From positions 246,800-310,799 of the forward strand of contig NZ_JAVBHX010000004.1 of the NCBI RefSeq assembly GCF_030732065.1: a DNA stretch of 64,000 nt, given 5' to 3'. The translations under genes were made by a program, and so were the position numbers. The notes below the pieces were generated by a model that searched no databases, was not told the DNA's origin, and worked only from the letters and a program-made list of their open reading frames with translations. This stretch comes from Oceanimonas aquatica. Its GTDB lineage: Bacteria > Pseudomonadota > Gammaproteobacteria > Enterobacterales > Aeromonadaceae. Shown here piece by piece: positions 27,720 to 63,755 of this stretch (positions are counted from its first letter, which is position 1; every line of letters starts with the position of its first letter).

Positions 27720-27750
27720 CGGCTTACGGCTTATGGCTCCCCGAAGGGGC
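27720..27750. repeat. Repeat family A unit at the kpsC 3' end
   Basis: Contains GGCTTACGGCTTATGGCTCC and CCCCGAAGGGGC. Read on the minus strand it encodes the last eight residues and the stop of kpsC (APSGSHKP-stop). Confidence 0.75.
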
Positions 27751-29802
27751 AAACGCCTCCCATAAATACGTCAGCTTCCGCCACCGGCGATACATAAACA
27801 GCATTGCCGGGTGTGTTGGCTCCCGGTAATTTTTCCGCTCTTCAGCCAGCTGGTGCGCCATACGCAGCGGGGTGCTGCACAGGCCGGTTTTGTAATCCAC
27901 ATAAGTGGGATACCAGGCATAAGTGGCGTACACCAGCGCCGCCAGGGGCAGCTCACTGCCCCGGCGTGCTACCGGGTGCATATCGGTGGTCAGGCCCCAG
28001 CCGGCATAAAACGGCTGTCCCCATACGGTTACCGGCTTACCGCGTATCAAGGCCTCAAGTCCGGTTAAAGAAGTCAGCACATGCACGGCGTTGGCTGCAT
28101 CCAGGCAGTCTACAATGCCGGCGCTGGTTTCAACCAAATCCACACAGGCGTTCAGCACCTTCTCCGGCACCCGACCCTGGCGGTTACCGCTCACCACATC
28201 CGGGTGCGGCTTAAACACAATAAAAGCATCGGGGTAAGCGGCCCGCACCGCTTCAAGCAAAGCAGCATTGCCCGCCACAAAAGGGCTGCCCAACTGCACA
28301 GAGGCATCATCATCCACCTGTCCCGGCACCAGAATAATGCGGCGCTCTCCGGCCAGTGTCCGCCAGTTCAGCTGGCTGCGAGTGCCCACGTTATATTTGG
28401 TCAGGGCCTGCTCGCGAAAGTGCGTTAACAGCTGTTCACCCAGTTTCAGCTCCAGCTCAGAAAAATCATGTTGCTTTAAATGCTGCTCAATGGCGCTGGG
28501 CATGCGCGGATCGTAATACATGCCCACAGAGTCAATCACCAGCGAGCCGGGCCGTCGCAGATCCGAGCCCAGCCCCACCGAGCGCAAAAAACCGTCTTCC
28601 ATGCGCCACACCGGCAGAGAGCAGCTCGCCAGCTGACACTCAAACTTACGGCCCCACACCAGCACGGCTTGTTTATTATTCGGCTGAAGGCTGGAATCCA
28701 TCGCGTCCGGAATACGATCAACAAATGTCACTTTCCTGGCATAACGGCGCAAAAAATAAGGCGCAAACCGCCGCCGCCACAGTGAAAAGCCTACCGCATA
28801 AAGTTCATCCACTTGAGGCACAGGGGCGCGCTGTGCCAGAAGCAGGTCCAGCAGCGCTTCCGGCTCACAGCGTTCACCGGTTACCGGATCAACATAGCGA
28901 CAATAACGAACATACGCCGCTGCCAGCAGCTGCTCCACAGTGCGCGGCTTGCCCCGGCGGGGCACGGCAACACGGTCATCGGTTGCACCCCAGCCGGCAT
29001 AAAAGGGCACACCAAAACATACCACCGGCTTGCCCGCCAGCAGTGCCTCAAAGCCCAGCTGAGAGGTAACCGTATATACTTTGTTTACTTCTGCCATCAG
29101 TGCAAACGGATTCACACTGTCGGCCAGTAACAGCACATCGTCACCGGCTACATCTGTTAAATAGCCTCGCTTTTTGCCCAACAATACATCCGGGTGCGTG
29201 CGCACAATAATCTGGGCGCCCGGATTTTCGGCTTTGGCGGCGGTCAGCATATCGGCAAATGACTGCTCGCTGGCCAGCCCCAGCCGTACCGACTGATCGC
29301 CTTTGGTCTGGTCAATCACCAGCACCCTGGGGCGAGTATTATCCAACCTGGCTGCTACCGCCGAAGGCAGCACATTGCCGGTATAACAGTTGTATTTGGT
29401 AATACCATGCTCAACCAGAGCCTGGCGCAGCGCTCTGGCCCGCTGCTGCCAGCCGTCATTCCACCAATCCAGGTGCTGCAGCATGTGCTCAAGGCGGCTT
29501 GGCCGGGTGGCATCGTAATACACACCCACTTCATCCACGATCAGTGACAGCCGCTGCCCGCCCTCAGCCGGGTGACCGATATAACCCACAAACCCGTCTT
29601 CCAGTTGCCAGAAAGGCAGAGCGCGCTGCTGTGCCAATTTTCGGGCTTTTTCAGTATTGGGTTTCATGCCCCAGCCCACTACAGCAGTGGGGCTGTTGCT
29701 GGGCATAAGTCCAAGGGAATGAGGCACCAGTAGAGCATTAAGCACCCGGCGCTGGCGCCAGATGCCAAGAGATGTGGTTAGAAGCATAAAAGGCTCAATC
29801 AT
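27724..29802 (-). CDS. kpsC: Capsule beta-Kdo transferase KpsC
   Basis: 692 residues with two homologous halves, as in KpsC, which alternately adds beta-Kdo residues to the lipid-linked capsule anchor. Each half has a matching motif: QLEDGFVGYIG...VDEVGVYYDA near residues 80-120, and RMEDGFLRSVGLG...IDSVGMYYDP near 430-480; each later carries TSQLGFEALLAGKPV or TSLTGLEALIRGKPV with F/Y-AGWG. Start taken as ATG 29802 (a second ATG lies at 29787), because the longer frame runs through the hairpin at 29805. The last eight residues come from a repeat. Unusually, it lies about 33 kb from kpsS and next to sulfate-activation genes. Confidence 0.93.
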   Translation of the reverse strand: MIEPFMLLTTSLGIWRQRRVLNALLVPHSLGLMPSNSPTAVVGWGMKPNTEKARKLAQQRALPFWQLEDGFVGYIGHPAEGGQRLSLIVDEVGVYYDATRPSRLEHMLQHLDWWNDGWQQRARALRQALVEHGITKYNCYTGNVLPSAVAARLDNTRPRVLVIDQTKGDQSVRLGLASEQSFADMLTAAKAENPGAQIIVRTHPDVLLGKKRGYLTDVAGDDVLLLADSVNPFALMAEVNKVYTVTSQLGFEALLAGKPVVCFGVPFYAGWGATDDRVAVPRRGKPRTVEQLLAAAYVRYCRYVDPVTGERCEPEALLDLLLAQRAPVPQVDELYAVGFSLWRRRFAPYFLRRYARKVTFVDRIPDAMDSSLQPNNKQAVLVWGRKFECQLASCSLPVWRMEDGFLRSVGLGSDLRRPGSLVIDSVGMYYDPRMPSAIEQHLKQHDFSELELKLGEQLLTHFREQALTKYNVGTRSQLNWRTLAGERRIILVPGQVDDDASVQLGSPFVAGNAALLEAVRAAYPDAFIVFKPHPDVVSGNRQGRVPEKVLNACVDLVETSAGIVDCLDAANAVHVLTSLTGLEALIRGKPVTVWGQPFYAGWGLTTDMHPVARRGSELPLAALVYATYAWYPTYVDYKTGLCSTPLRMAHQLAEERKNYREPTHPAMLFMYRRWRKLTYLWEAFAPSGSHKP

Positions 29803-29804
29803 TA

Positions 29805-29849
29805 AAAAAGGGGTCGGAGTCATTTTAAAAATGACTCCGACCCCTTTTT
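29805..29849. terminator. Perfect 22-bp inverted repeat, bidirectional terminator, between cysQ and kpsC
   Basis: AAAAAGGGGTCGGAGTCATT and two more T (29805-29826) pair with the exact complement (29828-29849) around one base. T-tracts are present on both strands. It follows the cysQ stop by six bases on the minus strand and precedes kpsC. The GGGGTCGGAGTCATTTT sequence looks like a dispersed repeat rather than a unique terminator. Confidence 0.8.
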
Positions 29850-29854
29850 CTTGT

Positions 29855-30652
29855 TTAGGCAAACAGTGCCGGCCAGTTCACGTCATTCTCGCCCAGCACC
29901 AGAAAGTAGGGGTTGAGTACTTCCCTGGTGTTGGCGTAACTCAGCGGTTCGCCGCTCAGTTGCACCACGGTGCCGCCGGCCTGCTCTACCACACACTGAG
30001 CGGCACCGGTGTCCCACAGTGAGGTAGGGCCAAGGCGAGGATAAATATCGGCGGCATTTTCTGCTACCAGGCACAGCTTGAGTGAACTGCCCATAGGCAC
30101 CAGCTGGTGCTCACCCAGTTTTTCCAGCAGAGCCGGCAGCTCGCCACCGCCATGAGAGCGGCTGCCCACCACGCGCCAGGGGGTGCCGGTCTGGTGTTCG
30201 GCTACGCTGATGGCCACCGGAGCTGCATCGCCTTCGGTTTTAAAAGCCCCCAGGCCTTCGGCAGCCACATAGCCCGTATTCAGGGCCGGCGCATACACCA
30301 CACCCAGTACCGGTTTGCCGTTTTCGATCAGGGCAATATTCACGGTGAACTCGCCGTTACGCTTGATGAACTCCTTGGTCCCATCCAGCGGATCTACCAG
30401 CCAGTAACGACCGTGCTCATCGGCACCGGCAAAACCGGCGGTGTCTTCTTCCGACAGCACGGGGGCTTTGAGTTCAAGCCGGGCCAGGCCGTCGGCAATG
30501 ATGTGGTGCGCGGCGGCATCGGCCTCGGTCAGCGGCGAGTTATCCTGTTTATGCTCAACGGCAAAGTCCCGTCCGTAGATTTCCATAATGGCGTCGCCGG
30601 CCCGGCGGGCGAGGGCGTCTACCTGGTTGAGCAATTCCTGAGTAATAGACAT
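29855..30652 (-). CDS. cysQ: 3'(2'),5'-bisphosphate nucleotidase (PAP phosphatase)
   Basis: Mg-dependent, Li-sensitive phosphatase of 265 residues converting 3'-phosphoadenosine 5'-phosphate (PAP), the by-product of PAPS-using sulfotransferases, to AMP. Seen: metal sites PVLSEED near residue 60 and DPLDGTKEFI near 87-96, and C-terminal LWDTGAAQCVVEQAGG. Gene order cysD-cysNC-cysQ on the same strand places PAP removal with PAPS production. Confidence 0.95.
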   Translation of the reverse strand: MSITQELLNQVDALARRAGDAIMEIYGRDFAVEHKQDNSPLTEADAAAHHIIADGLARLELKAPVLSEEDTAGFAGADEHGRYWLVDPLDGTKEFIKRNGEFTVNIALIENGKPVLGVVYAPALNTGYVAAEGLGAFKTEGDAAPVAISVAEHQTGTPWRVVGSRSHGGGELPALLEKLGEHQLVPMGSSLKLCLVAENAADIYPRLGPTSLWDTGAAQCVVEQAGGTVVQLSGEPLSYANTREVLNPYFLVLGENDVNWPALFA

Positions 30653-30814: not shown

Positions 30815-32722
30815 TTATCCTGTAATTATTCCCCGCTCTTTCAGCACGGCAATCACCGCATCGGCTGCTTCGTCGGCACTCAGCTGAGTGGTGTCGAGGC
30901 GGATTTCCGGGTTCTCGGGCTGCTCGTAGGCCGAGTCGATGCCGGTGAAGTTCTTCAGCTCGCCGCGGCGGGCCTTTTTATACAGACCCTTCACGTCACG
31001 CTCTTCGGCTACATTCAGCGGGGTGTCTACGTGCACCTCAATAAACTCACCCTCTTCCAGCATTTCCCGGGCCAGGCGGCGCTCGGCGCGGAACGGCGAG
31101 ATAAAGGCAGTGAGCACCAGCAGGCCGGCATCCACCATCAGTCGGGATACTTCCGCCACCCGGCGAATGTTTTCTACCCGGTCGGCATCGGTGAAGCCCA
31201 GATCCTTGTTCAGGCCGTGGCGCACGTTGTCGCCGTCCAGCAGGTAGGTATGGTTGCCCAGCGCGTGCAGCTTTTTCTCCACCCGATTGGCAATGGTGGA
31301 CTTGCCGGCACCGGACAGACCGGTAAACCACAGTACCGCCGGCTTCTGTCCTTTGGAGAGGGCGCGGGCTTCCTTGTTCACATCCACGTGTTGCATATGA
31401 ATGTTCTGGCTGCGGCGCAGGGAGAAATTCAGCATGCCGGCGGCCACGGTATTGTTGCTCAGCCGGTCGATCAGAATAAAGCCGCCGGTGTCCTTGTTGC
31501 TCTGGTAGTCATCAAAGGCAATGGCCCGGTCCAGACTGAGGTTACACACCGCAATGCCGTTCAGATCCAGCTTCTTGGCGGCCACGTGCTCCAGGGTGTT
31601 CACGTTCACCTGATATTTAATATCGGTGACGGTGGCGGTCACGGTTTTGGTGCCGATCTTCAGCAGGTAGGGGCGGCCCGGCAGCAGGGCGTCTTCATGC
31701 ATCCACACCAGGGTGGTCTCAAACTGATCGGCGGTGGCAATGGGATCCTCGGTGGTGGAGATCACATCACCACGGGAAATATCAATTTCATCCGCCAGGG
31801 TCAGGGTCACCGACTGGCCGGCCACGGCCTGAGCCAGATCGCCGCCGTGCACCACAATGCGCTCCACCGTGCTTTCCTTGCCGGACGGCAGCACCCGAAT
31901 GCGGTCGCCGGGCTGGATCACGCCGCTGGCGATGGTGCCGGAGAAGCCACGGAAGTCGAGGTTGGGGCGGTTCACCCACTGCACCGGCAAGCGGAAGGGG
32001 GCCCGCTGCATACGGGTGTCGTCCACTTCCACGGTTTCCAGGTACCCCATCAGGGTGGTGCCGTGGTACCAGGTCATGTTCTGGCTGGGCTCAACAATGT
32101 TGTCGCCCTTGAACGCCGACAGCGGAATGTAGGTGATGCTTTCCAGGTTGAGCTGCTCGGCAAACTGAGCGTAGTCTTCCTTGATGCGGTTAAAGGTCTC
32201 TTCCGAGTAGTTCACCAGATCCATCTTGTTGATGGCCACCACAATATGGCGAATGCCCAGCAGCGACATCAGATAGCTGTGGCGGCGGGTCTGGGTCAGA
32301 ATGCCTTTACGCGCATCCACCATCAGAATGGCGGCATCGGCGGTGGAGGCGCCGGTCACCATGTTGCGGGTGTACTGCTCGTGTCCGGGGGTGTCGGCCA
32401 CGATGAACTTGCGCTTGTCGGTGGAGAAGAAACGGTAGGCCACGTCAATGGTGATGCCCTGCTCGCGCTCGGCGGCCAGGCCGTCGACCAGCAGCGCAAA
32501 GTCGATGTCTTCGCCCTGGGTGCCGTATTTTCTGGAATCGGCTTCCATGGCGGCGAGCTGATCTTCAAACAGCATCTTGGACTCAAACAGCAAACGCCCA
32601 ATCAGGGTGCTTTTGCCGTCATCCACGCTGCCGCAGGTAATAAAACGCAGCAGACTCTTATTCTCGTGCTGCTGCAGATATTGCTCAATATCAGTGGCGA
32701 TAAGATCCGATTGATGCGCCAT
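30815..32722 (-). CDS. cysNC: Bifunctional sulfate adenylyltransferase subunit 1 / adenylylsulfate kinase (CysN-CysC fusion)
   Basis: 635-residue fusion. The N part (about 1-440) is the GTPase subunit of ATP sulfurylase with P-loop GSVDDGKST (31-39), [12 protein letters not shown] and NKMDLV. The C part (about 445-635) is APS kinase with P-loop GLSGAGKST near 467-475, [10 protein letters not shown] and [15 protein letters not shown]. With CysD it makes APS, then phosphorylates it to PAPS, the sulfate donor. In this locus, close to four sulfotransferase genes, PAPS is the relevant product. Follows cysD after 203 bases of repeats. Confidence 0.96.
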
Positions 32723-32795
32723 GATGAAATCCTCTGAATCTTGTGTTTTGGCTCTCGCACATCATGCAAGAGCATAAAAATACTGCCTGTAGTCC

Positions 32796-32905: not shown

Positions 32906-32930
32906 TCTAACGTGCCTTCGGCACGTTAGA
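32906..32930. repeat. 11-bp palindrome overlapping the cysD stop
   Basis: TCTAACGTGCC (32906-32916) / GGCACGTTAGA (32920-32930) with a 3-base loop. The cysD stop TAA (32926-32928) is in the stem. No T-tract, so more likely a 3'-end stabiliser than a full terminator. Confidence 0.6.
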
Positions 32931-33825
32931 AGTAACCCTCTTGTTTCTTTTTCTCCATGGATGCGGCGGAGTCGTGGTCAATCATGCGGCCCTGGCGCTC
33001 GGAGGTTTTAGTCAGCAGCATTTCCTGAATAATGTCGGGCAGGGTGGCGGCGGTGGACTCCACCGCGCCGGTGAGCGGGTAGCAGCCGAGGGTGCGGAAA
33101 CGCACGTGCTTCATCATGGGCACTTCGCCGTCTTTCAGCGGCATGCGCTCGTCATCCACCATGATCAGGGTGCCGTCACGCTCCACCACCGGGCGCTCGG
33201 CGGCGTAATACAACGGCACGATGGGAATGTTCTCGAGGTGAATGTACTGCCAGATATCCAGCTCGGTCCAGTTGGACAGGGGGAACACCCGAATGGACTC
33301 GCCCTTGTGCTTGCGGGCGTTGTACTGTTTCCACAGCTCGGGGCGCTGGTTTTTGGGGTCCCAGCGGTGCTGAGCGGTGCGGAAGGAGAAAATACGCTCC
33401 TTGGCGCGGGACTTCTCTTCATCGCGGCGGGCGCCACCAAAGGCGGCATCAAAACCGTACTTGTCCAGCGCCTGCTTCAGGCCTTCGGTCTTGGTGATGT
33501 CGGTATGAATGGCGGAGCCATGAGTAAAGGGGTTGATGTCTTTTTCAATGGCTTCCGGGTTGACGTGCACCAGCAGCTCCATGCCGAGCTTTTTGGCCAT
33601 GTGGTCGCGGAACTCGTACATTTCACGGAATTTCCAGCGGGTGTCTACATGCAGCAGAGGGAAGGGGGGCACCGAGGGGTAAAAGGCTTTCATGGCCAGA
33701 TGCAGCATCACGGCGCTGTCTTTACCAATGGAATAAAGCATGACCGGGTTGTCGGCCTCGGCCACTACTTCCCGCATAATGTGAATACTTTCGGCTTCCA
33801 GCCGTTGCAGGTGAGTAAGGTTCAT
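32926..33825 (-). CDS. cysD: Sulfate adenylyltransferase subunit 2
   Basis: PP-loop ATP pyrophosphatase of 299 residues, the catalytic subunit of ATP sulfurylase (sulfate + ATP to APS), paired with CysN. Seen: start [16 protein letters not shown], the PP-loop [10 protein letters not shown] (31-40), [27 protein letters not shown] and [16 protein letters not shown] 33825 is preceded by GAGGACTTCA and matches the CysD family start and length (about 302). No stop codon separates it from the coding region upstream, which reads in the same frame, so a 584-residue fusion is formally possible. Confidence 0.95.
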
Positions 33826-34680
33826 TGAAGTCCTCGTTGTTACAGATGTAGCCGAGTCACGGGCAGCCAGCGGCTGTGTGCGACGACCATGATGTGTTTG
33901 CACCGGCTCTGCCGGTGAAAATGAATGAGCGGCCGGGTGAAACACATTCAGCTGTGAATGCGTACCCAGCCAGTGCTGAATGGTTTCATTCCGGGATAAC
34001 GCGCAACCGCGCAGCACCAGACAGGCGGATGGCTCTTCAGTTATCAGGCGTTCAAAAAAAGCAATAAAATCAAGGGCAGCAGCGGGATAGGGGGCCATCA
34101 TCCAGTATTGCCGGCCTCTGGGGGTATGAGCATAAAGCTGCGTATAAGTGCCCAGGTTTTTTATTCCCGCCCATAATACACGGGCATTCATATGCCGGGC
34201 ACGTTGCTCGATAATGGGTAACGCATGCCTGCGCCATTGTTCACATGCCGGGTGGGTAAAGCGGGAGAAGACCGTTTGCTCCGGCTCTCTCTGCAACTGG
34301 TGACGTTCCATAAAGCGCAGCAGCGAGCGTTCGCTTACATTCACGTTCAGCTCTGCTGCCAGCCACTCAAGCACCAGCCCAGAGTGCCATAGCCCTCCTT
34401 CCGGCGGCGCAGTGTGCAGGCGCTGCAGCAACACCTGTTCTTGCTCGGCAGACAAGGCGCGGCCTTCACCTTTTTGCCGGCCTCTGGGCTTTACTTTTAT
34501 GGCATCCCAGCCACCGGCGGCAAAGGCTTTGCAGGCGGCAATAATGGTGGGGTTGCTTAACCCGGTGGCAGCAGAAACCTGAGCCAAAGTAGCACCGCCA
34601 AGGCGCAGCTCCACCGCCTGTTTCCGGCGCTGGTTTAACGTTGCTGGCGATAAATCTTTAATACTTTGTTTGTTGTTCAA
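33826..34680 (-). CDS. IS630-transposase-like helix-turn-helix region in frame with cysD
   Basis: 285 codons from TTG 34680, open to cysD with no stop of their own. The N part resembles the IS630 winged helix-turn-helix: [57 protein letters not shown]. The rest looks like an IS630 DDE domain whose catalytic acids are lost: the expected LDN motif reads LRG ([19 protein letters not shown]) and the first acidic motif reads WAGI. An in-frame stop lies at 34687, so TTG or CTG 34686 are the only starts, with a weak ribosome binding site. It could be a decayed element, a domesticated DNA-binding regulator of the cys genes, or an N-terminal fusion to CysD. Confidence 0.6.
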
Positions 34681-34794
34681 ACCCAGTTACCACTTGGCTT
34701 TAAGCGATTTATAAAAAATGCAGGCTCAGTTTCGGATGACAGTGTATTAAACAACAAAGTAGAATAAAAGCATGCATATAAAAGAACGGGAAAA

Positions 34795-36519
34795 ATGATG
34801 GCCTGGTGGGTATTGGCATCGGTAGGAGTGCTGCTGGTGTTGCTGGTGCGCGGAAAGCTGTCGCCGGCTGTGCTGTTTGGCAGCTGGGCAACCGGCTATT
34901 TAATGCTGGGAGTAGTAACTCAGCAGCAATGGTTAAGCAGTTTTACCAATCCGGCGCTGGCCACCCTGCTGGTATTAATGCTGGTGTCACTGGCGCTGGA
35001 GCGCTCTCCACTGCTGGAGCGTTTTTCCGGCGCGCTGCTTAAGGGCAACGAGCATCTGGCCACCTTCAGGCTGATGGGCGTTACCGCCACACTCTCGGCC
35101 TTTCTCAACAACACCGCCGTGGTGGGCTCTTTGCTGGGCGTCATTTCCCGCCAGCAGCACATAGCACCTTCGCGCTTGCTTATTCCGTTGTCGTTTGCCT
35201 CTGTGCTGGGGGGCATCACTACCCTGATTGGCACCTCTACCAATCTGGTGGTTAACTCCTTTGTAGTAAATGCCGGCCTGCCGGCGCTGGGCATGTTTGA
35301 ATTTGCCGCTGTGGGCGTGCCGGTGGCGCTGCTGTGCCTGCTTGTGATTATGCTCAGCCGGCGCTGGCTGCCCCGGCACAAATTACAGCAACACAACGGT
35401 CAGCAGCCTTATTTTCTGGAAGCCAAAGTGCAGCCCGGTGCGCCGCTTATTGGCCGCAGCATAGAGCAAAACAAACTCAGAAACTTAAATGGTCTTTATT
35501 TGCTGGAAATAGTACGCAACGAAAGGCTGATAAGCCCGGTGGCACCCGATGAGATTCTGGAAGCAAATGACGTATTGGTGTTCACCGGAGAAATAGAAAA
35601 AGTGCAGGCACTGCAGCCATTTAACGGGCTGGAGCTGTTTGGCAACGGGGTAGACAAACTGCTGGCATCCAACCTGGTAGAAGTAGTGGTGTCCAATCAG
35701 TCGGAGCTGGCCAAAAGCACCTTGCAGGAAGTGGATTTTCGCACCATGTTTAATGCCGGTGTGGTGGGCATAAGACGGGGCAACAAGCGGTTAACCGGCC
35801 AGCTGGGCACCATACCGCTGAAAGTGGGAGACAGCCTGCTGCTGGCCGTGGGGCAAGACTTTACGCAGCACCGCAACATAGACCGCAACTTTCATATTCT
35901 GGGCAACTGGCAGCGGCCCAAGCTCAGCAACCGGCAAAGCACGCTCGCTTTTGTGGGCTTTGGTGCCGTGGTGGCACTGGCCGCCTTTGGCGCATTGCCG
36001 CTGTTAAATGGCCTGCTGCTGTTGCTGGCCGGCCTGTTGCTAAGCCGCATATTAACCCTGGGCGAGCTGCGCCGGCGCTTTCCGTTTGAGCTGGTTATTA
36101 TTATTGGTTCTGCGCTGACGGTAGCCAAAGCCATGGACAGCTCGGGCGCGGCCCAGCTGGTGGCAGACGGCATGCGCAGCTTGTTCAGTGGCTATGGCGT
36201 GTTCGGGGCTTTTGTGGGCGTATATGTAATGACACTCATGCTTACAGAAACCGTCACCAACAACGCCGCCGCAGCGCTGGCATTTCCGGTGGGGCTGTCT
36301 ACCGCTCAGGCTTTTGGCGCTGATCCCATGCCGTTTATTATGGCAGTGGCCTTTGGTGCCAGCGCCTGCTTTATGGTGCCCTTTGGCTATCAAACGCACT
36401 TAATGGTGTATTCACCAGGCCACTACCGCATGACCGACTTCATTAAAACCGGCCTTCCCGTAAGCCTGGTGTATTCAGCAGGAGTGATAGCACTGGTGCC
36501 GGTGGTGTTTCCGTTTTAA
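34795..36519 (+). CDS. SLC13/DASS-family permease with paired RCK_C domains, probable sulfate transporter
   Basis: 574 residues. Membrane helices at about 3-190 and 385-574 flank two RCK_C (TrkA-C) domains at about 203-283 and 288-360. DASS motifs are seen in both halves: AFLNNTAVV (102-110) with LIGTSTNLVV (144-153), and TETVTNNAAAA. Proteins of this layout import sulfate or other anions with Na+. Divergent from the cysD unit across 114 bases, so sulfate is the most likely substrate; this rests on context. It converges with pgi. Confidence 0.88.
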   Translation: MMAWWVLASVGVLLVLLVRGKLSPAVLFGSWATGYLMLGVVTQQQWLSSFTNPALATLLVLMLVSLALERSPLLERFSGALLKGNEHLATFRLMGVTATLSAFLNNTAVVGSLLGVISRQQHIAPSRLLIPLSFASVLGGITTLIGTSTNLVVNSFVVNAGLPALGMFEFAAVGVPVALLCLLVIMLSRRWLPRHKLQQHNGQQPYFLEAKVQPGAPLIGRSIEQNKLRNLNGLYLLEIVRNERLISPVAPDEILEANDVLVFTGEIEKVQALQPFNGLELFGNGVDKLLASNLVEVVVSNQSELAKSTLQEVDFRTMFNAGVVGIRRGNKRLTGQLGTIPLKVGDSLLLAVGQDFTQHRNIDRNFHILGNWQRPKLSNRQSTLAFVGFGAVVALAAFGALPLLNGLLLLLAGLLLSRILTLGELRRRFPFELVIIIGSALTVAKAMDSSGAAQLVADGMRSLFSGYGVFGAFVGVYVMTLMLTETVTNNAAAALAFPVGLSTAQAFGADPMPFIMAVAFGASACFMVPFGYQTHLMVYSPGHYRMTDFIKTGLPVSLVYSAGVIALVPVVFPF

Positions 36520-36678: not shown

Positions 36679-36720
36679 ACTTACAGCTGATAGCTTACGG
36701 CTTACAGCTCCCCGCAGGGG
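36679..36720. repeat. Repeat family A unit at the pgi 3' end
   Basis: Contains ACTTACAGCTGATAGCTTAC and GGCTTACAGCTCCCCGCAGG. On the minus strand it encodes the last residues and stop of pgi ([12 protein letters not shown]). Confidence 0.75.
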
Positions 36721-39281: not shown

Positions 39282-39283
39282 TG

Positions 39284-48154: not shown

Positions 48155-48164
48155 ACAATTATCT

Positions 48165-54855: not shown

Positions 54856-54944
54856 TCTAATTCCTTCAGAGTTCAACAACTGACTCTTAGTATGATTTTA
54901 ATTAACTTTTATCTTATATAAATCTTAAAGCAGGTGTTAAATGA

Positions 54945-55805
54945 CTATACTAACGCCTCATTTAACATGGCATTTAACTGTTCGCGCCAGTGAACAGATT
55001 TAATATTTAATGCTTGCTGTAATGAACTGCTGCTTAATACGCTGTAACTAGGGCGCTTTGCTGGAGTAGGGTAGTCTGCCGTCTCTATGGCATTAACCGG
55101 AATTTGCTTGTTAAGCAGCCCCTTGCATCGTGCCAAAGACTGAATAGCTACGGCAAAGTCATACCAGCTGGCCACACCCGCATCGCTCCAGTGATAAATG
55201 CCAGCCGGTTTCTGCTGTGCCGCTTGCCAGCAAACTCGTGCCAGGCCAGCAGCCCAGGTGGGTGCCCCTATTTGATCTGCTACCACGCCCAGTTGCTCTT
55301 TTTCGTTCATTAACCGCAGCATGGTTTTTACAAAGTTATTGCCATGGCTGCTGTATACCCAGCTGGTGCGGATAATGGTGGCAGAGGGCAGGGCTTGTTG
55401 CACGCCTCGTTCACCGGCCAGCTTGCTGCTGCCATATACGCTTACCGGGTTGGGTGTGCTGTCAGGGGTATATGGAGTGTTGGCTGTGCCGTCAAATACA
55501 AAATCAGTAGACACTTGCACCAGGTGAGCGCCTATCGACTGGCAGGCTTCTGCCAGATATTGTGGCCCTTTGGCGTTGATATTAAATGCCTGCTCTTGTT
55601 CGGTCTCAGCCTTGTCTACGGCTGTATAAGCGGCGGCGTTTATTACTGCATCCGGCTGTTCTGCGGTAATAAGGGTATGCACTGCGGCCTGGTTGCTGAT
55701 GTCCAGCTCTTGGCTTGATACAAAACGGGCTGTTATTCCGGCAGGAATACTGTTGGCCAGCTCATAAGCAAGCTGGCCATTTTTGCCGATAATTAGAATG
55801 TACAT
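54945..55805 (-). CDS. rmlD: dTDP-4-dehydrorhamnose reductase
   Basis: 286 residues; last step of dTDP-L-rhamnose synthesis. Seen: ILIIGKNGQLAYEL, VINAAAYTAVDKAE, VSTDFVFDGTANTPY, catalytic YGSSKLAGE and IIRTSWVYSSHGNNFVKTM. ATG 55805 is chosen because the upstream extension is encoded by a family A repeat. Part of the rmlA-rmlC-rmlD run. Confidence 0.95.
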   Translation of the reverse strand: MYILIIGKNGQLAYELANSIPAGITARFVSSQELDISNQAAVHTLITAEQPDAVINAAAYTAVDKAETEQEQAFNINAKGPQYLAEACQSIGAHLVQVSTDFVFDGTANTPYTPDSTPNPVSVYGSSKLAGERGVQQALPSATIIRTSWVYSSHGNNFVKTMLRLMNEKEQLGVVADQIGAPTWAAGLARVCWQAAQQKPAGIYHWSDAGVASWYDFAVAIQSLARCKGLLNKQIPVNAIETADYPTPAKRPSYSVLSSSSLQQALNIKSVHWREQLNAMLNEALV

Positions 55806-55812
55806 CAAAAAT

Positions 55813-55861
55813 GCCCCTTCGGGGGTGTTAGCTGTCAGCTTTAAGCTGTAAGCCATAAGTT
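55813..55861. repeat. Repeat family A unit upstream of rmlD
   Basis: GCCCCTTCGGGGGTGTTAGC followed by TGTCAGCTTTAAGCTGTAAG and CCATAAG. Lies in the gap between rmlC and rmlD. Confidence 0.72.
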
Positions 55862-55962: not shown

Positions 55963-56508
55963 TTAGAAGGTATCAGCCTGGGATAGCAGGGGGGCGTTGG
56001 TGTCTTTTTCGGAGAGGGTGGGCTGCTCTCCGTTTACCAGAGGCCAGTTTATGTTCAGCTCCGGATCGTTCCAGCGCAGGCTGCGGTCGTGCTCAGGGGC
56101 GTAGTAGTTGGTGCACTTGTAAACAAAGTCTGCGCTGTCGCTCATTACATAAAAACCATGAGCAAAGCCTTCGGGCACCCAGAACTGGCGTTTGTTTTCT
56201 GCAGAAAGCACCACACCTACATGCTGGCCAAAGGTGGGGGAGTTTTTGCGCATATCTACGGCCACATCATAGACTTCGCCGCTTACCACCCGCACCAGCT
56301 TACCCTGGGGCTGCTGAATCTGATAATGCAAACCGCGCAGAATACCCTGCACCGAGCGTGAGTGGTTGTCTTGCACAAAGGGTTTGCCACCGGTCAGCTC
56401 ATCAAACAGGCTTTGACGAAAGGTTTCCATAAAAAAGCCACGTTCATCACCAAATACGGTGGTTTCAATGATCTTTACCTCGGGAATGGCGGTGTCGATA
56501 ATATTCAT
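55963..56508 (-). CDS. rmlC: dTDP-4-dehydrorhamnose 3,5-epimerase
   Basis: Cupin enzyme of 181 residues, third step of dTDP-L-rhamnose synthesis. Seen: FGDERGFFMETFRQS, QDNHSRSVQGILRGLHYQ with the catalytic His, VRVVSGEVYDVAVDMRKNSPTFG and the Tyr/Asp region DFVYKCTNYYAPEHD. Two bases separate it from rmlA. Confidence 0.96.
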   Translation of the reverse strand: MNIIDTAIPEVKIIETTVFGDERGFFMETFRQSLFDELTGGKPFVQDNHSRSVQGILRGLHYQIQQPQGKLVRVVSGEVYDVAVDMRKNSPTFGQHVGVVLSAENKRQFWVPEGFAHGFYVMSDSADFVYKCTNYYAPEHDRSLRWNDPELNINWPLVNGEQPTLSEKDTNAPLLSQADTF

Positions 56509-56510: not shown

Positions 56511-57440
56511 TTATGCCTTGTAGCTTCTTTTAAAACCAGTTTCATTAAGCAAATTAAGCAGGTACTGACCATAGCCGTTTTTCTTCATGGGGTCGGCCAG
56601 AGCTTTAAGCTGGGCATCGTCTATATAACCAAAGCGCCAGGCAATTTCTTCCGGGCAGCACACTTTAAGGCCCTGGCGTTTTTCTATGGTGGCAATAAAG
56701 TGGCCGGCTTCCAGCAGATCGTCGTGGGTGCCGGTGTCCAGCCAGGCACTGCCGCGGCCCAATGGCTCTACGTTCAGCAGGCCGTCTTGCAGATAGGCTT
56801 TGTTCACATCGGTAATTTCCAGCTCACCACGGGCAGAAGGCTTAATGGATTTGGCAATCTTAACTACGTTGTTGTCATAGAAATAGAGGCCGGGCACGGC
56901 AAAGTTGGACTTGGGCTGAGCGGGCTTTTCTTCCAGTGACAGCACCTTACCGTTTTCGTCGAACTCGGCCACACCGTAGGCGGTGGGATTTTGTACATGG
57001 TAGCCAAAAATGGTGGCACCTTGTTGTTGCATATTTGCTCTGTTTAGTGACTCGGTAAGATTATGGCCAAAGAAGAGGTTGTCACCAAGGATCAAACACA
57101 CCGGTGAGTCGCCAATAAACTCCTCTCCCAGAATAAAGGCCTGAGCCAGTCCGTCGGGAGTGGGCTGCACTTTATAGCTGAGTTTAATTCCCCATTCGCT
57201 GCCATCGCCTAGCAGGTCCTGAAAACGGGGCAGATCGGTGGGAGTAGAGATAATTAAAATATCTTTAATGCCTGCAAGCATCAGGGTGCTGAGCGGATAA
57301 TAGATCATGGGCTTGTCGTATACCGGCATCAGCTGTTTGCTGACCGCTTTAGTCAGCGGGTAGAGCCGGGTGCCTGAACCACCGGCCAGAATAATGCCTT
57401 TGCGCTGAACGGAAGATGAAGTCTTTTTAATGTTTAGCAT
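56511..57440 (-). CDS. rmlA: Glucose-1-phosphate thymidylyltransferase
   Basis: 309 residues; first step of dTDP-L-rhamnose synthesis. Seen: [72 protein letters not shown] and [19 protein letters not shown] 13-residue N-terminal extension ([13 protein letters not shown]) precedes the core; the ATG at 57440 has AGGTACC upstream. Confidence 0.96.
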
Positions 57441-57457: not shown

Positions 57458-58540
57458 TTAGTCGCGGTGGTCACGAATGATCAGCATCATCATATTGGCA
57501 ATAAAAGCCAGAAACAGAGTGATGAGTGCAAAAATGGTGGTGTTGTAGAGTCGCTTCGGCTCGGTAGCATATTCCGGCTGCAGCGGGCTTTGCAGCACGC
57601 TTACCTGCTTGAGCTTGCGCGCAGCTTCTATCCGGGTGCTTTCCAGTGCAGCCAGGGCGCTGGAGTAGGTTTGCTGAGCAAATTGCGCTTTCAGCTCAAG
57701 GGCCTGATAACCGGCAGATATCTGGTTCAGGGCACTGCCGGTTTCTTTGGCAAGGCGGTTTTGCTCTTTGCCAATTTGTTGTTGCAGGGCGTTTATTTCG
57801 GCTTTTATTTGCACCAGCTCGGCGGAGCGGGTGCTCTGGTAGCTTTGTGCTGCGGTATAGCGGGCCTGCAGGCGGGCCAGTTCGCCTTCCAGCGTGCCTA
57901 CTACCTGATTAAGACTTTCTACGGTATGAATGGGTGAGATAAGACCATGTTCGTTCTGAAACGCCAGCAGGTTGGCCCGGGCTTCATCCAGCCGGTCACC
58001 CAGGCGATCGGTTTGTTTTTCAAGAAACTTAACCTGCTCTTCAGCCAGGCGCTGACCCATGTTGTTCATATGGGCTTCGCCGGCGCTTAGCAGCAATTGA
58101 GCCATGTCGTGGGCAAATTCAGGAGTAAAGGCTTGCACTTCTATATTGAGCACTCCGGCGTATTCATCCAGCTCTACACTTACGCGCTTTTGATAGTATT
58201 TGTGCAGCTCTTCTATGGGAGCGTCTTTGTTCCACAGGCTGGCAAACAGATCACCATTCTCGCTGTAGTGCTCGCGAAAGGGCAGTTCCCTGAGAACTGT
58301 GCTGAGCATATCGGTTGAGAGCAGGTGTTCGCGCAGCAGTAGCAGATCGCTGTGGCCGCCATTGCCCTGTATGAGGCTGGAGAAGCTGAACTCGGGGGCG
58401 GCAATTTGCGGGCTTTCCAGCACTACGGTAGCACGGGAGACGTAGCGATCGGATGCCCAGGCAAACCAGTAAAAGGCAACGGCCAGAATGGCCACCAGGG
58501 CGAGCGCCCAATGAGGTTGTTTTTTGATGAATTTTTGCAT
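57458..58540 (-). CDS. kpsE: Capsule export inner-membrane protein (KpsE/Wzz-type)
   Basis: 360 residues. A short N-terminal cytoplasmic tail and membrane helix (about 12-30) lead into a Wzz-type domain ([16 protein letters not shown]), a periplasmic coiled coil (about 150-310) and a C-terminal membrane helix (about 333-355). This fits the polysaccharide co-polymerase of ABC-dependent capsule export, which bridges the KpsMT transporter and the outer-membrane KpsD channel. Followed by rmlA after 17 bases. Confidence 0.9.
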
Positions 58541-58584: not shown

Positions 58585-58676
58585 CGAGCTGTAAGCCGTA
58601 AGCTGTCAGCTTTAAGAGCCCCTTCGGGGAGCTATAAGCCATAAGCTGTCAGCTTAAAGCTTACGGCTCCCCGCCG
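58585..58676. repeat. Repeat family A, double unit between kpsE and kpsT
   Basis: Two adjacent copies of the GAGCTGTAAGCCGTAAGCTG / CCCCTTCGGGGAGC units. On the minus strand the element encodes the last residues and stop of kpsT (PPAGSRKL-stop). Confidence 0.77.
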
Positions 58677-59349
58677 GAGGCGGGGACGTTTCTTCATGGT
58701 AAGCCGCTATAGCATCGTTAATATCGTCATACCAAATGGCCTGGCCATTTTTAAGGTAAATGCCGGCCTGGCAGAGCTCTTTAAGAATGCCTTCTGCATG
58801 GGACACAATAATCAGGCTTGCCTGGCCTACTTTATCTTTAAAGGCTTTGCTGGCTTTTGCTTTAAAAGCGCGGTCGCCTACAGCCGTTGCTTCATCCGAA
58901 AGGTAAACATCAAAGTCAAAAGCCAGAGACAAGCCAAAGTTCAGTCGTGATCGCATACCCGAAGAATACGTTTTTATGGGCCGGTCGAACGCAGCTCCCA
59001 GCTCGGAGAATTCTTCTACATAGCGAATAATACGCTGAACTTCCTCATGGCGGGCACCGTGCACTCTGGCTACAAATTTTACGTTTTGCCGCCCGGTCAT
59101 GGAACCTTGAAAACCACCCGCAAGGCCAATGGGCCAGGATACCCGGCAATAACGCTGTACTGTACCTTTCTCGGGATTGTCCATGCCGGCAATTAAACGC
59201 AACAGAGTGCTTTTGCCGGCACCATTGCGGCCCAGCAGGCCTACGCTTACGTTGGCAGGAATGGTGAGGTTAATATCTTGTAGTACCCAGGGGGCTTCGC
59301 GGCCATCACGGCTGTTGTAGCGTTTATAAAGATTGCTGATTTCTATCAT
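58654..59349 (-). CDS. kpsT: Capsule ABC transporter ATP-binding protein
   Basis: 231 residues. Walker A GLLGRNGAGKSTLLRLIAG, the non-canonical signature YSSGMRSRLNFGLSLAF and Walker B VYLSDEATAVGD are as in KpsT-type capsule exporters. With KpsM it drives the finished lipid-linked polysaccharide across the inner membrane. The stop of kpsM overlaps its start (ATGA). The last ten residues are encoded by a repeat; E. coli KpsT is slightly shorter. Confidence 0.95.
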   Translation of the reverse strand: MIEISNLYKRYNSRDGREAPWVLQDINLTIPANVSVGLLGRNGAGKSTLLRLIAGMDNPEKGTVQRYCRVSWPIGLAGGFQGSMTGRQNVKFVARVHGARHEEVQRIIRYVEEFSELGAAFDRPIKTYSSGMRSRLNFGLSLAFDFDVYLSDEATAVGDRAFKAKASKAFKDKVGQASLIIVSHAEGILKELCQAGIYLKNGQAIWYDDINDAIAAYHEETSPPPAGSRKL

Positions 59350-60143
59350 TGTGCTTTCAGCCTCTCTTTATAGCGAACATGTAACAGCAGGCCTAAAGCG
59401 TTTAAAGTCAGAGTCCATAGCCATAAATATATCTCACTGGTGCCATGCACTACTTTATAGTTTTCAAAAAAAGCGGCGCGAATAAACTCTATACCATGCA
59501 CCATAGGGTTGAGCATCAAATATTCGAGCAGGTAGTGGGGCAGCATATTTAATGGGAGTATAACGCCTGAGATAATCAGCAATGGCATAGTAAGCATACC
59601 TACTATTTTTGCGGTTTCCGGGATCAGCGTGCCTGTAACCGACAAGACCAGGCCAAAGCCCATTCCCAATGCCCATAGCGATAGCCAGCCAAACAGTGCT
59701 TTTATGGCATTGTCCGGGAACAGGTCTAACCCCAGCAACAGGCCACCCAATATAAACAGCAGGAACACAAAGGTTCTTAATAAACCGTCCAGATATCCCC
59801 TTACAAATACGGCATCACTGGGGTGAACCTGGCGGTAGGCAAACAGGGCTTTGCTGGCGTTTATTGCACCCTGGCTACGGACCATATTTTCTCGAACCAG
59901 AAAAAAGCCCATCATGCCTACTATCATCCAGGGTATAAAATCAGCACCGGTAATCAGCTGATGACTGCCACTTACAAAGCTTCGGATGAAGGTCATGATC
60001 GCAATAAATGCAACCGGCTCTGCAATCATCCAGAACCAGCCCATGCGGTCGGCCATGGTGCGCGAAACCGCCTCGCGCATAAACATGGCATGCCATACAC
60101 TGCGGGTTACCTGCCAGGGTGTGCGGCTTTGCATGGTGCTCAT
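59346..60143 (-). CDS. kpsM: Capsule ABC transporter permease
   Basis: 265-residue ABC-2 type permease with about six membrane helices. Seen: FMREAVSRTMADRMGWFWM, IPWMIVGMMGFFLVRENMVR, and the C-terminal NPMVHGIEFIRAAFF motif typical of KpsM/Wzm. Its start overlaps the kpsD stop by one base (TAATG) and its end overlaps kpsT by four. Confidence 0.95.
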   Translation of the reverse strand: MSTMQSRTPWQVTRSVWHAMFMREAVSRTMADRMGWFWMIAEPVAFIAIMTFIRSFVSGSHQLITGADFIPWMIVGMMGFFLVRENMVRSQGAINASKALFAYRQVHPSDAVFVRGYLDGLLRTFVFLLFILGGLLLGLDLFPDNAIKALFGWLSLWALGMGFGLVLSVTGTLIPETAKIVGMLTMPLLIISGVILPLNMLPHYLLEYLMLNPMVHGIEFIRAAFFENYKVVHGTSEIYLWLWTLTLNALGLLLHVRYKERLKAQ

Positions 60144-61843
60144 TACAGATCTACTGCCACTTTGGCGGCAATGGCAATCTGGTAAAGAATCTGGGTAATG
60201 GTGCCGGCCAGCTGCAGGTTTTTGGTGGGTGCCTTGGGCAGCACCAGAATTTCGTCACCCGGGCGCAGGGTTACGTCGTCAGCTTCGCGCACCTCACCGT
60301 TCTGGCGCACCACCAGAATACGGCTTTCATCAGCATGGTCGGTAAAGCCGCCGGCCCCTTCTATATAGTCTCTGGCGCTGCGTTTGGTGTTAAACACCAC
60401 AGACTGAGGCACCAGTACCTCGCCGCTTATCAGCACCGAGTCGGAGGTTTCCGGAATGGTGATAACGTCACCGTCTTGCAGGCGAATATCGCTGATCTGC
60501 CCGTTATTGGCCAGCACCAGGCGGCCGTTGGGCTCTACCTGACGGGCGCGCTCAATAAACTGGCTGATAAGCTCCGCTTCGCGCACCCGGATTTCGGCTT
60601 CTTCCGGGGTAGAAGATGAGGCGCCCATATAGGTGGTTTCCAGCCGGGCCAGGCTCTCATCCAGTGCCTGTTTCTGGCGCTCGGCCACGCTTACCCGCTT
60701 CAGCGAGATGCTGTTGGTATCAGTCATATTTTGCGGCACAGCCACGGCGTTCAGCAGCTCGTGCAGGCGGGCATCACGGGGCAGGGCAAAGCGGGACGGG
60801 CCATAATAGCTGCCTTCCAGCTGCACTACTATGGTGTTGTCGCGCATGTCGCTGCTGAAAATAACCTGATCACCGCTCTTAAGTGACTGCTGGCTGAGTT
60901 CGTCCAGTTTTACGTAGCGTGAAATGGGACCTTGAGTGCGGGCACCGCGCAGCAAAACATGGGTTACGTTAGACTTGAGCCGGGCCAGATTCAGCAGTTC
61001 CTGCCCGGTCATTTGGTCAGGCTGCAGTTCATAACGGTAGGGGCGGGCTACGTCACCGTCCACGGTAACAGTGGGGCCTCGTTCTTCCACTACTATGGTG
61101 TCGCCGTCTTTCAGTTGCACATTGGGCAGGGTGCCGTTCAGCAAAAAGGCGTAGAGATCGGCGGTGGCAATGGTTTTGCCGTGGCGCTTCAGCCGCACTT
61201 TGCGATAGCTGCCGGTGGCGCTGTCTATGCCGCCGGCCTGATCAATAAAATAAAGCAGCGAGTCGCTGGGAGTGCCGGCAAAACGACCGGGGTTTTGCAC
61301 ATAGCCGGTGACAAACACGGAGACCGGCTGCACGCCCTGCAGGTTGGTGTATACCTGCACGTTATTGGAATAAATAGAGTTAACGGCGCTGCGCACTTTG
61401 GCATCCAGCTGGCCGTGCTTTATGCCCTGCACTTTAATGGGGCCCACGCCGGGAATGAAAATATTGCCCTGAGCATCCACCGGCAACACTCTGTCTATTT
61501 CTACCGCGCCCCATACCCGCAGGGTGACCTGATCACCGGGAGTAATAATGTAGTCGGGGTTCAGGCCATCGGCACGCACACCACTGAAGCCACCGGTAAA
61601 CAGGTGGCTGCCAAAGCTCGGGTAGTCTTCCTGTGTCATGGTGGCACCGGGCACACCATAGCGTGCATTGTGCCACTGGGTGTTGCTGTTTTGCGCGGCG
61701 TTGTCAGACTCGGATGGTGCATTAAAACGGCTTTGTTGTTCGGCAGGCAGTTCGCCGGCATTTATGCCAATCAGCTGAGCCTGGGCGGGGCCCGCCAAAA
61801 ATGCGATCAAGCCGAGAGGTGCGGCGAGTTTTTTTAAGGACAT
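60143..61843 (-). CDS. kpsD: Outer-membrane polysaccharide export protein (KpsD/Wza-type)
   Basis: 566 residues. Signal peptide (about 1-22, ending AQA), a polysaccharide export domain (LNPDYIITPGDQVTLRVWGAVE, GNIFIPGVGPIKVQGIKHG) and several SLBB domains (PVSVFVTGYVQNPGRF, TVTVDGDVARPYRYEL, SVLISGEVLVPQSVVF). Forms the outer-membrane/periplasmic channel for the capsule polymer. AAGGA lies just before the ATG. The lipoprotein gene upstream is 104 bases away, the gap filled by repeats. Confidence 0.93.
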   Translation of the reverse strand: MSLKKLAAPLGLIAFLAGPAQAQLIGINAGELPAEQQSRFNAPSESDNAAQNSNTQWHNARYGVPGATMTQEDYPSFGSHLFTGGFSGVRADGLNPDYIITPGDQVTLRVWGAVEIDRVLPVDAQGNIFIPGVGPIKVQGIKHGQLDAKVRSAVNSIYSNNVQVYTNLQGVQPVSVFVTGYVQNPGRFAGTPSDSLLYFIDQAGGIDSATGSYRKVRLKRHGKTIATADLYAFLLNGTLPNVQLKDGDTIVVEERGPTVTVDGDVARPYRYELQPDQMTGQELLNLARLKSNVTHVLLRGARTQGPISRYVKLDELSQQSLKSGDQVIFSSDMRDNTIVVQLEGSYYGPSRFALPRDARLHELLNAVAVPQNMTDTNSISLKRVSVAERQKQALDESLARLETTYMGASSSTPEEAEIRVREAELISQFIERARQVEPNGRLVLANNGQISDIRLQDGDVITIPETSDSVLISGEVLVPQSVVFNTKRSARDYIEGAGGFTDHADESRILVVRQNGEVREADDVTLRPGDEILVLPKAPTKNLQLAGTITQILYQIAIAAKVAVDL

Positions 61844-62317: not shown

Positions 62318-62329
62318 CACGCTACCGCC
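62318..62329 (-). promoter_or_regulatory. ops element (RfaH recruitment site)
   Basis: Read on the minus strand, GGCGGTAGCGTG, a perfect match to the 12-base ops consensus, preceded by CCAAG as in the 3' part of E. coli JUMPstart sequences. It lies 29 bases upstream of the lipoprotein start, in a transcribed leader. RfaH loads on paused RNA polymerase here and suppresses termination in long surface-polysaccharide operons. Confidence 0.87.
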
Positions 62330-62413
62330 CTTGGGGTGCGGCTCCCAATTCGCCGATTGAGTGTTATTTAAACGCTTTTGCATTTTGCATGTTCAGCGTT
62401 ATTTTTCGGGCCG

Positions 62414-62454
62414 CATGCTACCACTTGGCTTAGGGTATTACGATGTGCCAGAGC
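62414..62454 (-). promoter_or_regulatory. JUMPstart-like element, degenerate
   Basis: On the minus strand: GCTCTGG (62454-62448), then TAAGCCA (62432-62426), then GGTAGCATG (62422-62414). These are the three blocks of JUMPstart in order but with changed spacing (15 and 3 bases instead of about 7 and 5) and one change in the ops core. It lies about 40 bases after the kpsS stop and upstream of the perfect ops. Confidence 0.45.
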
Positions 62455-62492
62455 CTTTCATTATTGATGCTGATCAATAAGTGGGCGCTTAC

Positions 62493-63755
62493 TTAGGCGG
62501 CTTCTTGCTTTGCTTTTTCTGTGATTGGCTGTTCTAGTTTTCCAACCAGGCGAATGGGCGGCTCTGCCTGTTGCTGCAGTCGCTGCCAGATTTGCTGACA
62601 GGTGCTGTTAGGCCGGCAATAAAAGCTGCCGTTCAGTTGGGTATGCTTCAGCAGAAAGGCGCGCAGGCGATTGAACAGATCGCCACTTACCGGCTGAGGT
62701 GCCTGCCAGAATTCATCCAGGCTGCACTGGCTGGTGAGTCCCGGCACATCATACAGGGCCTTGCCGAGGGTGATGGTGGGCACATGGTGCAGAAGTGCCG
62801 ACATGCCCACTGTGCTGTTTACGGTAACCACGCCTTTGCAGTGGCGATATACCTCGGGCAGGGGCAGCTCATAACCGTAGAACACCCTCCCGGTTAGCCC
62901 GTGCTTTGCAGCCAGGTTATGAATGAGCCTGCTGTAGTTGGTGTAGCCTCTGTCCATAGGGTGATGCTTGAACAACAGCACGTCATTCTGTGACGCATTT
63001 GTTGCAAATGAGTTCGTTATGTGAACAATAGACTCAGTCACGTCGTTAAAGTGCGAGTGCTCACGAATTTGAAAGTCGTCTGCCACCTGCAGCGGCACCA
63101 GAAATATGTGCTTTGAGTGTTGGTCTGCCAGGGTTTGCAGCAGGCCTTTGTCGTGGGCGGTGTGGGTATATTTGGTATACCAGCCCTTTAGCCAGGCTAT
63201 GCCTTCTTTCCAGTAAGGGCGGTGACGGTGGTGCACATAGTGACGAAAGCGCCAGCGGCAACAATGCATGCTGAAGTAGTAACGCATGGCAAAATAAATG
63301 CGGCGCTTGAAGTTGGCTTTTATATCAAACTCATGTTGCACCCGCTCGGGGCTTTGTTTGGGCAGTGCTTGCGCCAGTTTGCCATACCAGGGGCTGTGGG
63401 CGTTTACGCCGTGCTGCTCCAGAGTGATGTAGTGCGGGCGCAGGTAGCCTTCTTCAAATACAAAAAAGCGAATGTTGTGGCTTTGGCAATAAATGCGGGC
63501 TACGGCGTGATATTCGCGGCAGTCGCTATAGCAGAAAACGGTATCAATTCCGTTTTCGCTAATGTAGTTGTGCAGAAAATTACGCCATTCCGGCAGGCTG
63601 CCGGTGTAGTGAATATTTTCACCGCGGCAGGGCCAGCAGCCGTCGCCACCATTGAAGTGAATTTTGTGTACAGAAACGCCTTGCTCGCTGAGGAAGCGAG
63701 AGAAATGCTGGAAGAACGGTCCTAATGGTCCCTGGAGTAGCAAGGCTGATTGCAT
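62493..63755 (-). CDS. kpsS: Capsule beta-Kdo transferase KpsS
   Basis: 420 residues, the enzyme that puts the first beta-Kdo on the lysophosphatidylglycerol anchor. Seen: LLLQGPLGPFFQHFSRFL at the start, HYTGSLPEWRNFL, VFCYSDCREYHAVARIYC, FFVFEEGYLRPHYITLE, FLVPLQVADDFQIREHS, and the HHPMDRGYTNYSRLI and VNSTVGMSALLH motifs of this family. Length is close to E. coli KpsS (about 390). It lies upstream of the ops leader on the same strand. Confidence 0.94.
   Translation of the reverse strand: MQSALLLQGPLGPFFQHFSRFLSEQGVSVHKIHFNGGDGCWPCRGENIHYTGSLPEWRNFLHNYISENGIDTVFCYSDCREYHAVARIYCQSHNIRFFVFEEGYLRPHYITLEQHGVNAHSPWYGKLAQALPKQSPERVQHEFDIKANFKRRIYFAMRYYFSMHCCRWRFRHYVHHRHRPYWKEGIAWLKGWYTKYTHTAHDKGLLQTLADQHSKHIFLVPLQVADDFQIREHSHFNDVTESIVHITNSFATNASQNDVLLFKHHPMDRGYTNYSRLIHNLAAKHGLTGRVFYGYELPLPEVYRHCKGVVTVNSTVGMSALLHHVPTITLGKALYDVPGLTSQCSLDEFWQAPQPVSGDLFNRLRAFLLKHTQLNGSFYCRPNSTCQQIWQRLQQQAEPPIRLVGKLEQPITEKAKQEAA

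Follow-up and report, generated by a model that had tools for sequence, protein, structure and literature searches.

In rhizobia, nodPQ and nodH place a dedicated CysD/CysNC copy beside a sulfotransferase in a pathway that makes a signal molecule, and we know of no transposase-like extension in nodPQ. Sulfated capsules proven by nuclear magnetic resonance (NMR) have been described for Cobetia marina KMM 1449 and Vibrio sp. KMM 8419. In the former, sulfate is carried on rhamnose, and cysN/C, cysD, cysQ and a sulfate permease gene are located between the kps operons (PMC11766843). The latter harbors second copies of cysC, cysN and cysD, and the report on it regards genes for the synthesis of 3'-phosphoadenosine 5'-phosphosulfate (PAPS) together with sulfotransferases as a hallmark of sulfated polysaccharide synthesis (PMC11641403). 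Here, a 64,000-nucleotide stretch of Oceanimonas aquatica (the window), the right end of contig C19 in a genome of 3.45 Mb, was analyzed. It contains a capsule locus (27724-63755) whose cysD gene, encoding the small subunit of ATP sulfurylase, is fused in frame to an N-terminal extension related to IS630 transposases. Akin to the cluster reported for C. marina, the locus unites a kps transporter, KpsS and KpsC, rml genes, sulfotransferases, cysN/C, cysD, cysQ and a sulfate permease; with the Vibrio strain it shares a second cys copy, sulfotransferases, a kps transporter and rml genes. However, the sugars differ from those of C. marina, and kpsC is missing in the Vibrio strain. A helix-turn-helix (HTH) or transposase is mentioned in the main text of neither report, nor is IS630 in that on C. 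marina, which thus describes no such CysD extension. Like nodPQ/nodH, the window has a dedicated CysD/CysNC by a sulfotransferase, although the rhizobial product is not a capsule.

The cysD open frame comprises 584 codons. CysD proper starts at residue 286, and residues 277-584 score above the cut-offs of NF009214 and TIGR02039. Residues 1-285 constitute the extension, which matches NF033545 (IS630 transposase; E 4e-16) with 59 bits, below the curated cut-off of 100 bits, as well as the helix-turn-helix families PF13551/13565. Identity to IS630-family transposases is 20-24%. According to the sequence and a predicted model, the extension folds into a paired-type helix-turn-helix and an RNase H-like domain, both as in IS630-family transposases, followed by a linker of about 30 residues that has low confidence in the model and is probably disordered. 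Unlike those transposases, it is fused to or located beside cysD, is conserved in place across species, and lacks the first two catalytic acids, which are absent from all ten CysD-linked rows of the IS630 alignment. The column of the third acid cannot be aligned reliably; three of the ten rows have E there. Invariant alignment columns mark the helix-turn-helix as the best conserved part. The extension is thus likely a domesticated IS630-transposase-like protein, and it is predicted to bind DNA.

To determine how widely the extension occurs, 75 genomes of the family were searched. Eight matched: in six the extension is joined to CysD, and the other two gave weak matches to transposase-like frames only. 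The fused form is found in 6 of 23 genomes of one genus, comprising the window genome (G000), O. smirnovii ATCC BAA-899 (G055), Oceanimonas sp. GK1 (G056), Zobellella endophytica (G044), G051 and G059. All six fused loci begin with TTG, and their open frames (586-607 codons) are free of stops. The ratio of nonsynonymous to synonymous substitution rates (dN/dS) in the extension was 0.18-0.37 in 14 of 15 pairs (50-87% nucleotide identity), the 15th pair being saturated. Judged by these sequence comparisons, the extension is under purifying selection, even though it evolves faster than the CysD part, and we are confident that selection maintains the fused frame as a genuine protein. In each of the six genomes the fused cysD lies less than 4 kb from kpsC; the interval holds cysNC and cysQ in five, and in G044 it holds SLC13, with no cysQ seen there.

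The extension is a property of one gene copy. It is absent from the second CysD in all five genomes of the genus that have two copies. CysD copies were compared pairwise (window/L011, L043/L066, L044/L065, L047/L068). In three of the five two-copy genomes (G055, G056 and G051), synonymous divergence (dS) between the copies within the genome was 0.04-0.13, compared with at least 0.22 between species for the same copy type. This suggests gene conversion or exchange between the copies, ending at the extension. No sign of exchange was seen in G000 (dS 0.46 within the genome) or G059 (1.13). Beyond the genus the same rule holds: in all ten genomes in which two copies were seen (G000, G055, G056, G051, G059, G437, G232, G439, G516 and G818) just one CysD copy carries or adjoins the extension. 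In G044 the fused CysD is the only CysD, and in G332 a single CysD was seen (five of nine candidates scored); hence, the fused CysD is probably able to act as ATP sulfurylase in both. In four relatives (L032, L035, L037, L041) the gap between cysD and cysNC holds a small gene, flanked by repeats, for a four-helix-bundle-like protein that we take to be of the S23 type. No such small gene was seen in the corresponding gap of the window (32723-32925, 203 bases).

Fused forms were also found in two further family-level groups, and in a third group the extension is encoded by a gene of its own immediately ahead of cysD. A class sample of 369 genomes revealed fused frames in G428, G232 and G437, a form in G332 that keeps only the helix-turn-helix, and the extension as a stand-alone gene preceding cysD in G439. 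The fused frame is present in 4 of 27 genomes of the order of G437. The linker between extension and CysD is in frame in 10/10 cases. In a phylum sample of 398 genomes, the separate form was found in G439, G516 and G818; the further extension matches, G751 and G670, lie outside the inspected loci. Within the family of G818 (f172), 16 of 151 genomes match the extension. In six of eleven inspected loci the CysD core follows the separate gene after 56-85 bases. In two of the other five, the gene was found without CysD by pattern (in G516 cysD is adjacent in another scan), and three loci were missed by the pattern, among them that of G818, where gene and cysD are adjacent in another scan. Stops fall inside the matched stretch of the separate gene in 2/16 (G975 and G964), and two stops counted in G885 and G896 fit the gap between the gene and cysD. 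The neighborhood of G818 contains SLC13, galU, pgi, glycosyltransferase and rml genes and two genes with sulfotransferase motifs, a set much like that of the window. By eye, the neighbors in G428 and G332 read as MiaB and other genes unconnected with capsules. The long open frames that precede CysD in G199 and G142 were rejected, as they seem to be open by chance. The CysD of G076 and G134 (L086, L089) carries another type of N-terminal extension, about 200 residues long, in which the RNase H-like domain may have decayed still further. The separate-gene state in another family is a natural comparison for the fused state.

What, then, might the extension do? DNA-binding proteins that act as local regulators are usually encoded at the head of an operon that adjoins a divergently transcribed transporter gene, and in f172 the separate gene occupies just this position. 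PutA, BirA and NadR are enzymes fused to a DNA-binding domain; the CysD fusion resembles them in its proposed mode only, an enzyme reporting substrate flux to its own promoter, while enzyme and DNA-binding fold are different and regulation by the CysD fusion is a proposal. In Vibrio vulnificus, PAPS is reported as a signal for polysaccharide genes; together with the binding of adenosine 5'-phosphosulfate (APS) by Cbl, this indicates that metabolites of sulfate activation can control genes (PMC6113621). By analogy, the extension may be a regulator of the PAPS module acting at the SLC13/cysD promoter, a reading that we hold to be quite possible, though short of likely. No extension-specific operator was found when fused and unfused copies were compared by eye in the DNA between SLC13 and cysD (114 bases in the window), and a conserved promoter-like block is common to both kinds of copies. 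More tentative is the fuller proposal that a domesticated transposase regulated the PAPS module and was later fused to CysD in some lineages, so that the enzyme binds its own divergent promoter and sets sulfate uptake and activation by what the sulfotransferases require.

The translation starts bear on how much fused protein is made. A Shine-Dalgarno-like site and the internal ATG of CysD are kept in all six fused loci of the genus. The calculated energy of the ribosome site was -5.9 to -6.1 kcal/mol at the internal ATG versus -2.8 to -4.9 kcal/mol at the TTG in 6/6, and -3.9 to -4.6 kcal/mol at the starts of the unfused copies; comparable or lower values occur at other in-frame codons of the extension. 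Because the internal ATG has the better site, two products, fused and free CysD, are likely, and the fused product may be the minor one. The predicted protein entries for the window (P0001) and Oceanimonas sp. GK1 (P0003) start at internal ATGs and drop the helix-turn-helix part; gene calling thus hides the fusion. We found no report of a CysD-HTH or CysD-transposase fusion in the literature searched, and none by title or abstract among the listed matches on capsule sulfation and on the activation of sulfate. As far as these searches reach, the conserved extension, derived from a transposase and specific to one CysD copy, is a new element of ATP sulfurylase.

Two other explanations of the extension were considered. 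It could be a tether or oligomerization domain, and no gene regulator, that places ATP sulfurylase at the site of capsule synthesis or on CysNC. RNase H-like folds can dimerize, and a probably disordered linker would suit a tether. However, conservation is strongest in the helix-turn-helix, the sole part left in G332, and in f172 the protein is encoded by a separate gene, which makes this function doubtful. Alternatively, the extension could be what remains of an IS630 element that inserted ahead of cysD and is open by chance, CysD being made from the internal ATG only. Although its IS630 ancestry, its faster evolution and the conserved internal start would all be expected of such a relic, the low dN/dS ratios, the absence of stops in all six loci, the in-frame linkers, the existence of the same protein as a separate gene in another family and the lack of a Met near the CysD start in G332 render it improbable.

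The fusion lies within a capsule locus that KpsC, KpsS and KpsMTED-type export genes identify as ATP-binding cassette (ABC)-transporter-dependent (kps, group 2/3), the KpsE-like protein scoring below the NCBIfam cut-off (Table 1). In a profile search of the genome, KpsC and KpsS of this locus were the only PF05159 proteins. RmlA, B, C and D, GalU, GalE, phosphoglucose isomerase and several glycosyltransferases are encoded in the same locus. A preliminary description of the window had assigned cysQ, cysNC and cysD to the kps locus, along with an SLC13 permease and four proteins whose motifs point to PAPS binding, and family profiles and motifs bear this out. It had also proposed that the capsule is served by sulfotransferases and a PAPS supply of its own, and that it is sulfated at several positions. 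The dedicated supply gained support from a search of the genome, which located a second cysD-cysNC-SLC13 copy on contig C1 (CysD at L011 8663-9562, with just 8 open codons upstream and no extension) and cysH, cysI and cysJ on a contig other than C19 and C1, away from the capsule locus. A capsule of this type has a precedent in C. marina KMM 1449. The preliminary description had overlooked the CysD fusion.

Table 1. Features of the capsule locus, with positions in the window, strand and supporting evidence
Feature	Position	Strand	Evidence
KpsC, Kdo (3-deoxy-D-manno-oct-2-ulosonic acid) transferase of capsule lipid anchor	27724..29862	-	PF05159, three stretches, 296 bits
CysQ, 3'-phosphoadenosine 5'-phosphate (PAP) phosphatase	29855..30652	-	TIGR01331 above cut-off
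CysNC, ATP sulfurylase large subunit fused to APS kinase	30815..32722	-	NF004035 above cut-off
CysD domain, ATP sulfurylase small subunit	32926..33825	-	NF009214 above cut-off; internal ATG after Shine-Dalgarno-like site
CysD N-terminal extension, in frame, TTG start	33826..34680	-	IS630-transposase-like paired HTH and degenerate RNase H-like domain; NF033545, PF13551/13565
Intergenic region, divergent SLC13/cysD	34681..34794	.	promoter-like block
SLC13-type permease, likely sulfate uptake	34795..36519	+	PF03600 and TrkA_C; TIGR00785 match below cut-off
Phosphoglucose isomerase	36695..38386	-	PF00342
GalU, UDP-glucose synthesis	38370..39332	-	TIGR01099 above cut-off
GalE, UDP-glucose 4-epimerase	39284..40294	-	TIGR01179 above cut-off
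RmlB	40307..41371	-	TIGR01181 and NF007490 above cut-off
Glycosyltransferase-like	41436..42383	-	PF00534
GT2 glycosyltransferase, two domains	42359..44656	-	PF00535
ST1, sulfotransferase-like, C-terminal TPR-like helices	44677..46038	-	
ST2, sulfotransferase-like	46180..47136	-	5'-PSB loop, R110/S118 in 35/35 aligned rows; profile hit 3rnl
ST3, Sulfotransfer_2 family	47306..48154	-	PF03567 above cut-off
NAD-dependent sugar epimerase/dehydratase	48165..49085	-	PF01370
Multi-domain glycosyltransferase, GT4- and GT2-type domains	49082..53038	-	
ST4, sulfotransferase-like N-terminus, long coiled-coil-like tail	53035..54879	-	LGMHRSGTS loop, R140/S148
RmlD	54945..55856	-	PF04321
RmlC	55963..56508	-	PF00908
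RmlA	56511..57440	-	PF00483
KpsE-like export protein	57458..58540	-	TIGR01010 E 6e-85, below cut-off
KpsT-like ABC ATPase	58654..59349	-	PF00005
KpsM-like permease	59346..60143	-	PF01061
KpsD-like export protein	60143..61843	-	PF02563, SLBB
KpsS	62493..63755	-	PF05159

The four sulfotransferase-like proteins (ST1-ST4) were expected from the preliminary description to keep PAPS-binding residues. This is true of the 5'-phosphosulfate-binding (5'-PSB) loop in all four and, as read from the sequences, of the Arg-x7-Ser 3'-phosphate motif in ST2, ST3 and ST4; in ST4 both motif residues are invariant in 3/3 aligned rows. ST1 departs from it, having Ala at the Ser position, where Ser occurs in 12 of 33 family rows. 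The fold of ST1, the one protein of the four that was modelled, matches sulfotransferases in the prediction, and we refer to it as sulfotransferase-like only. Sequence searches of the PDB with ST1-ST4 singly matched no sulfotransferase. Profile A1 was built from 35 of 120 listed relatives (239 found) and profile A2, of ST1, from 33 of 104 found, picked for spread. While the ST2 family profile matches 3rnl, A2 retrieved mainly TPR proteins, with the sulfotransferase 1zd1 at E 0.28. The ST4 profile matches the ST2 family weakly (hhalign probability 38%), its match to a clear sulfotransferase of a second locus (below) spans 25 residues only, and ST4 is 32% identical to its paralogue there. In another genome (G822; L137 9946-13365), a frame of 1140 residues combines an ST4-like, sulfotransferase-like N-terminus with glycosyltransferase-like domains. 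Among the matches listed, relatives of ST1 and ST2 were found in Cobetia and Halomonas/Vreelandella. Where names are given, these relatives are mostly called hypothetical protein; they would therefore be new candidates for polysaccharide sulfotransferases.

KpsC relatives were found in loci from Oceanimonas, Zobellella, Oceanisphaera and one gammaproteobacterial assembly, and nine such loci (L014-L022) were compared, together with as much as 10 kb of flanking sequence. In five (L015, L018-L021) the flanks hold cysNC, cysD or cysQ, and in four (L014, L016, L017, L022) they do not; the sulfation module is therefore frequent in this capsule type without being fixed. Sulfotransferases around relatives were scanned for by regular-expression motif only, and the first, narrower pattern, which missed some cases caught by a wider one, found no sulfotransferase motif in the nine loci. 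Guanine plus cytosine (G+C) content is about 0.60 in the left flank and drops to 0.33-0.45 across 46001-54000, as expected for an exchanged variable region. At 46001-48000, which covers ST2 and ST3, it is 0.33, compared with about 0.6 in the left flank, and this suggests recent import of the sulfotransferase genes.

Taken together, the gene content makes a sulfated, rhamnose-containing capsule with a dedicated PAPS supply likely. The Cobetia and Vibrio strains with NMR-proven sulfated capsules have similar gene sets, and Cobetia also has relatives of ST1 and ST2; capsule sulfation is therefore of a known kind. The SLC13 permease would import sulfate, from which CysD and CysNC, assigned by family, would make PAPS. 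The sulfotransferases would then sulfate sugars or the nascent chain in the cytoplasm, and the by-product PAP would be hydrolysed by CysQ, likewise assigned by family. From their families, KpsC and KpsS are expected to prime the chain and KpsMTED to export it.

A second polysaccharide locus was detected at the end of contig C20 (L013, 261000-280727; 13369-15825). It encodes a KpsT/Wzt-like ABC ATPase, 35% identical to KpsT of the window over 219 residues, glycosyltransferase-like proteins, another phosphoglucose isomerase and two sulfotransferase-like proteins of 552 and 249 residues, one of which passes PF00685 and PF13469. Because of these two genes, PAPS need not serve the capsule alone. 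It is very unlikely that the cys genes of the capsule locus are merely a second copy for ordinary cysteine synthesis, placed there by chance. Such a role would fit the near identity of the CysD copies within some genomes, which suggests exchange, and G044, where the fused CysD is the sole one; yet these genes have kpsC on one side and the genes for sugars and sulfotransferases on the other, the genome holds cysHIJ and a complete further cys copy elsewhere, and several genomes have the same module adjoining capsule genes. That PAPS serves mainly the C20 locus and the capsule is unsulfated is highly unlikely, for although that locus has two sulfotransferase-like genes and a KpsT-related ATPase, the capsule locus itself has four, two of them from families with Cobetia members.

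A sulfated capsule with its own PAPS supply and a fused regulator CysD is, as a whole, probably the best explanation of the locus. The extension would most likely bind at or near the divergent SLC13/cysD promoter and tune the module to the flux of sulfate activation. A transposase may first have been domesticated as a local regulator of the PAPS module and then fused to ATP sulfurylase, and the fusion would couple the state of the enzyme to DNA binding. To our knowledge, it is not settled how capsule sulfation and cysteine synthesis, which share the PAPS pool, are kept apart. If the proposal is true, a DNA-binding, copy-specific CysD would be a direct link of sulfate activation to gene control.

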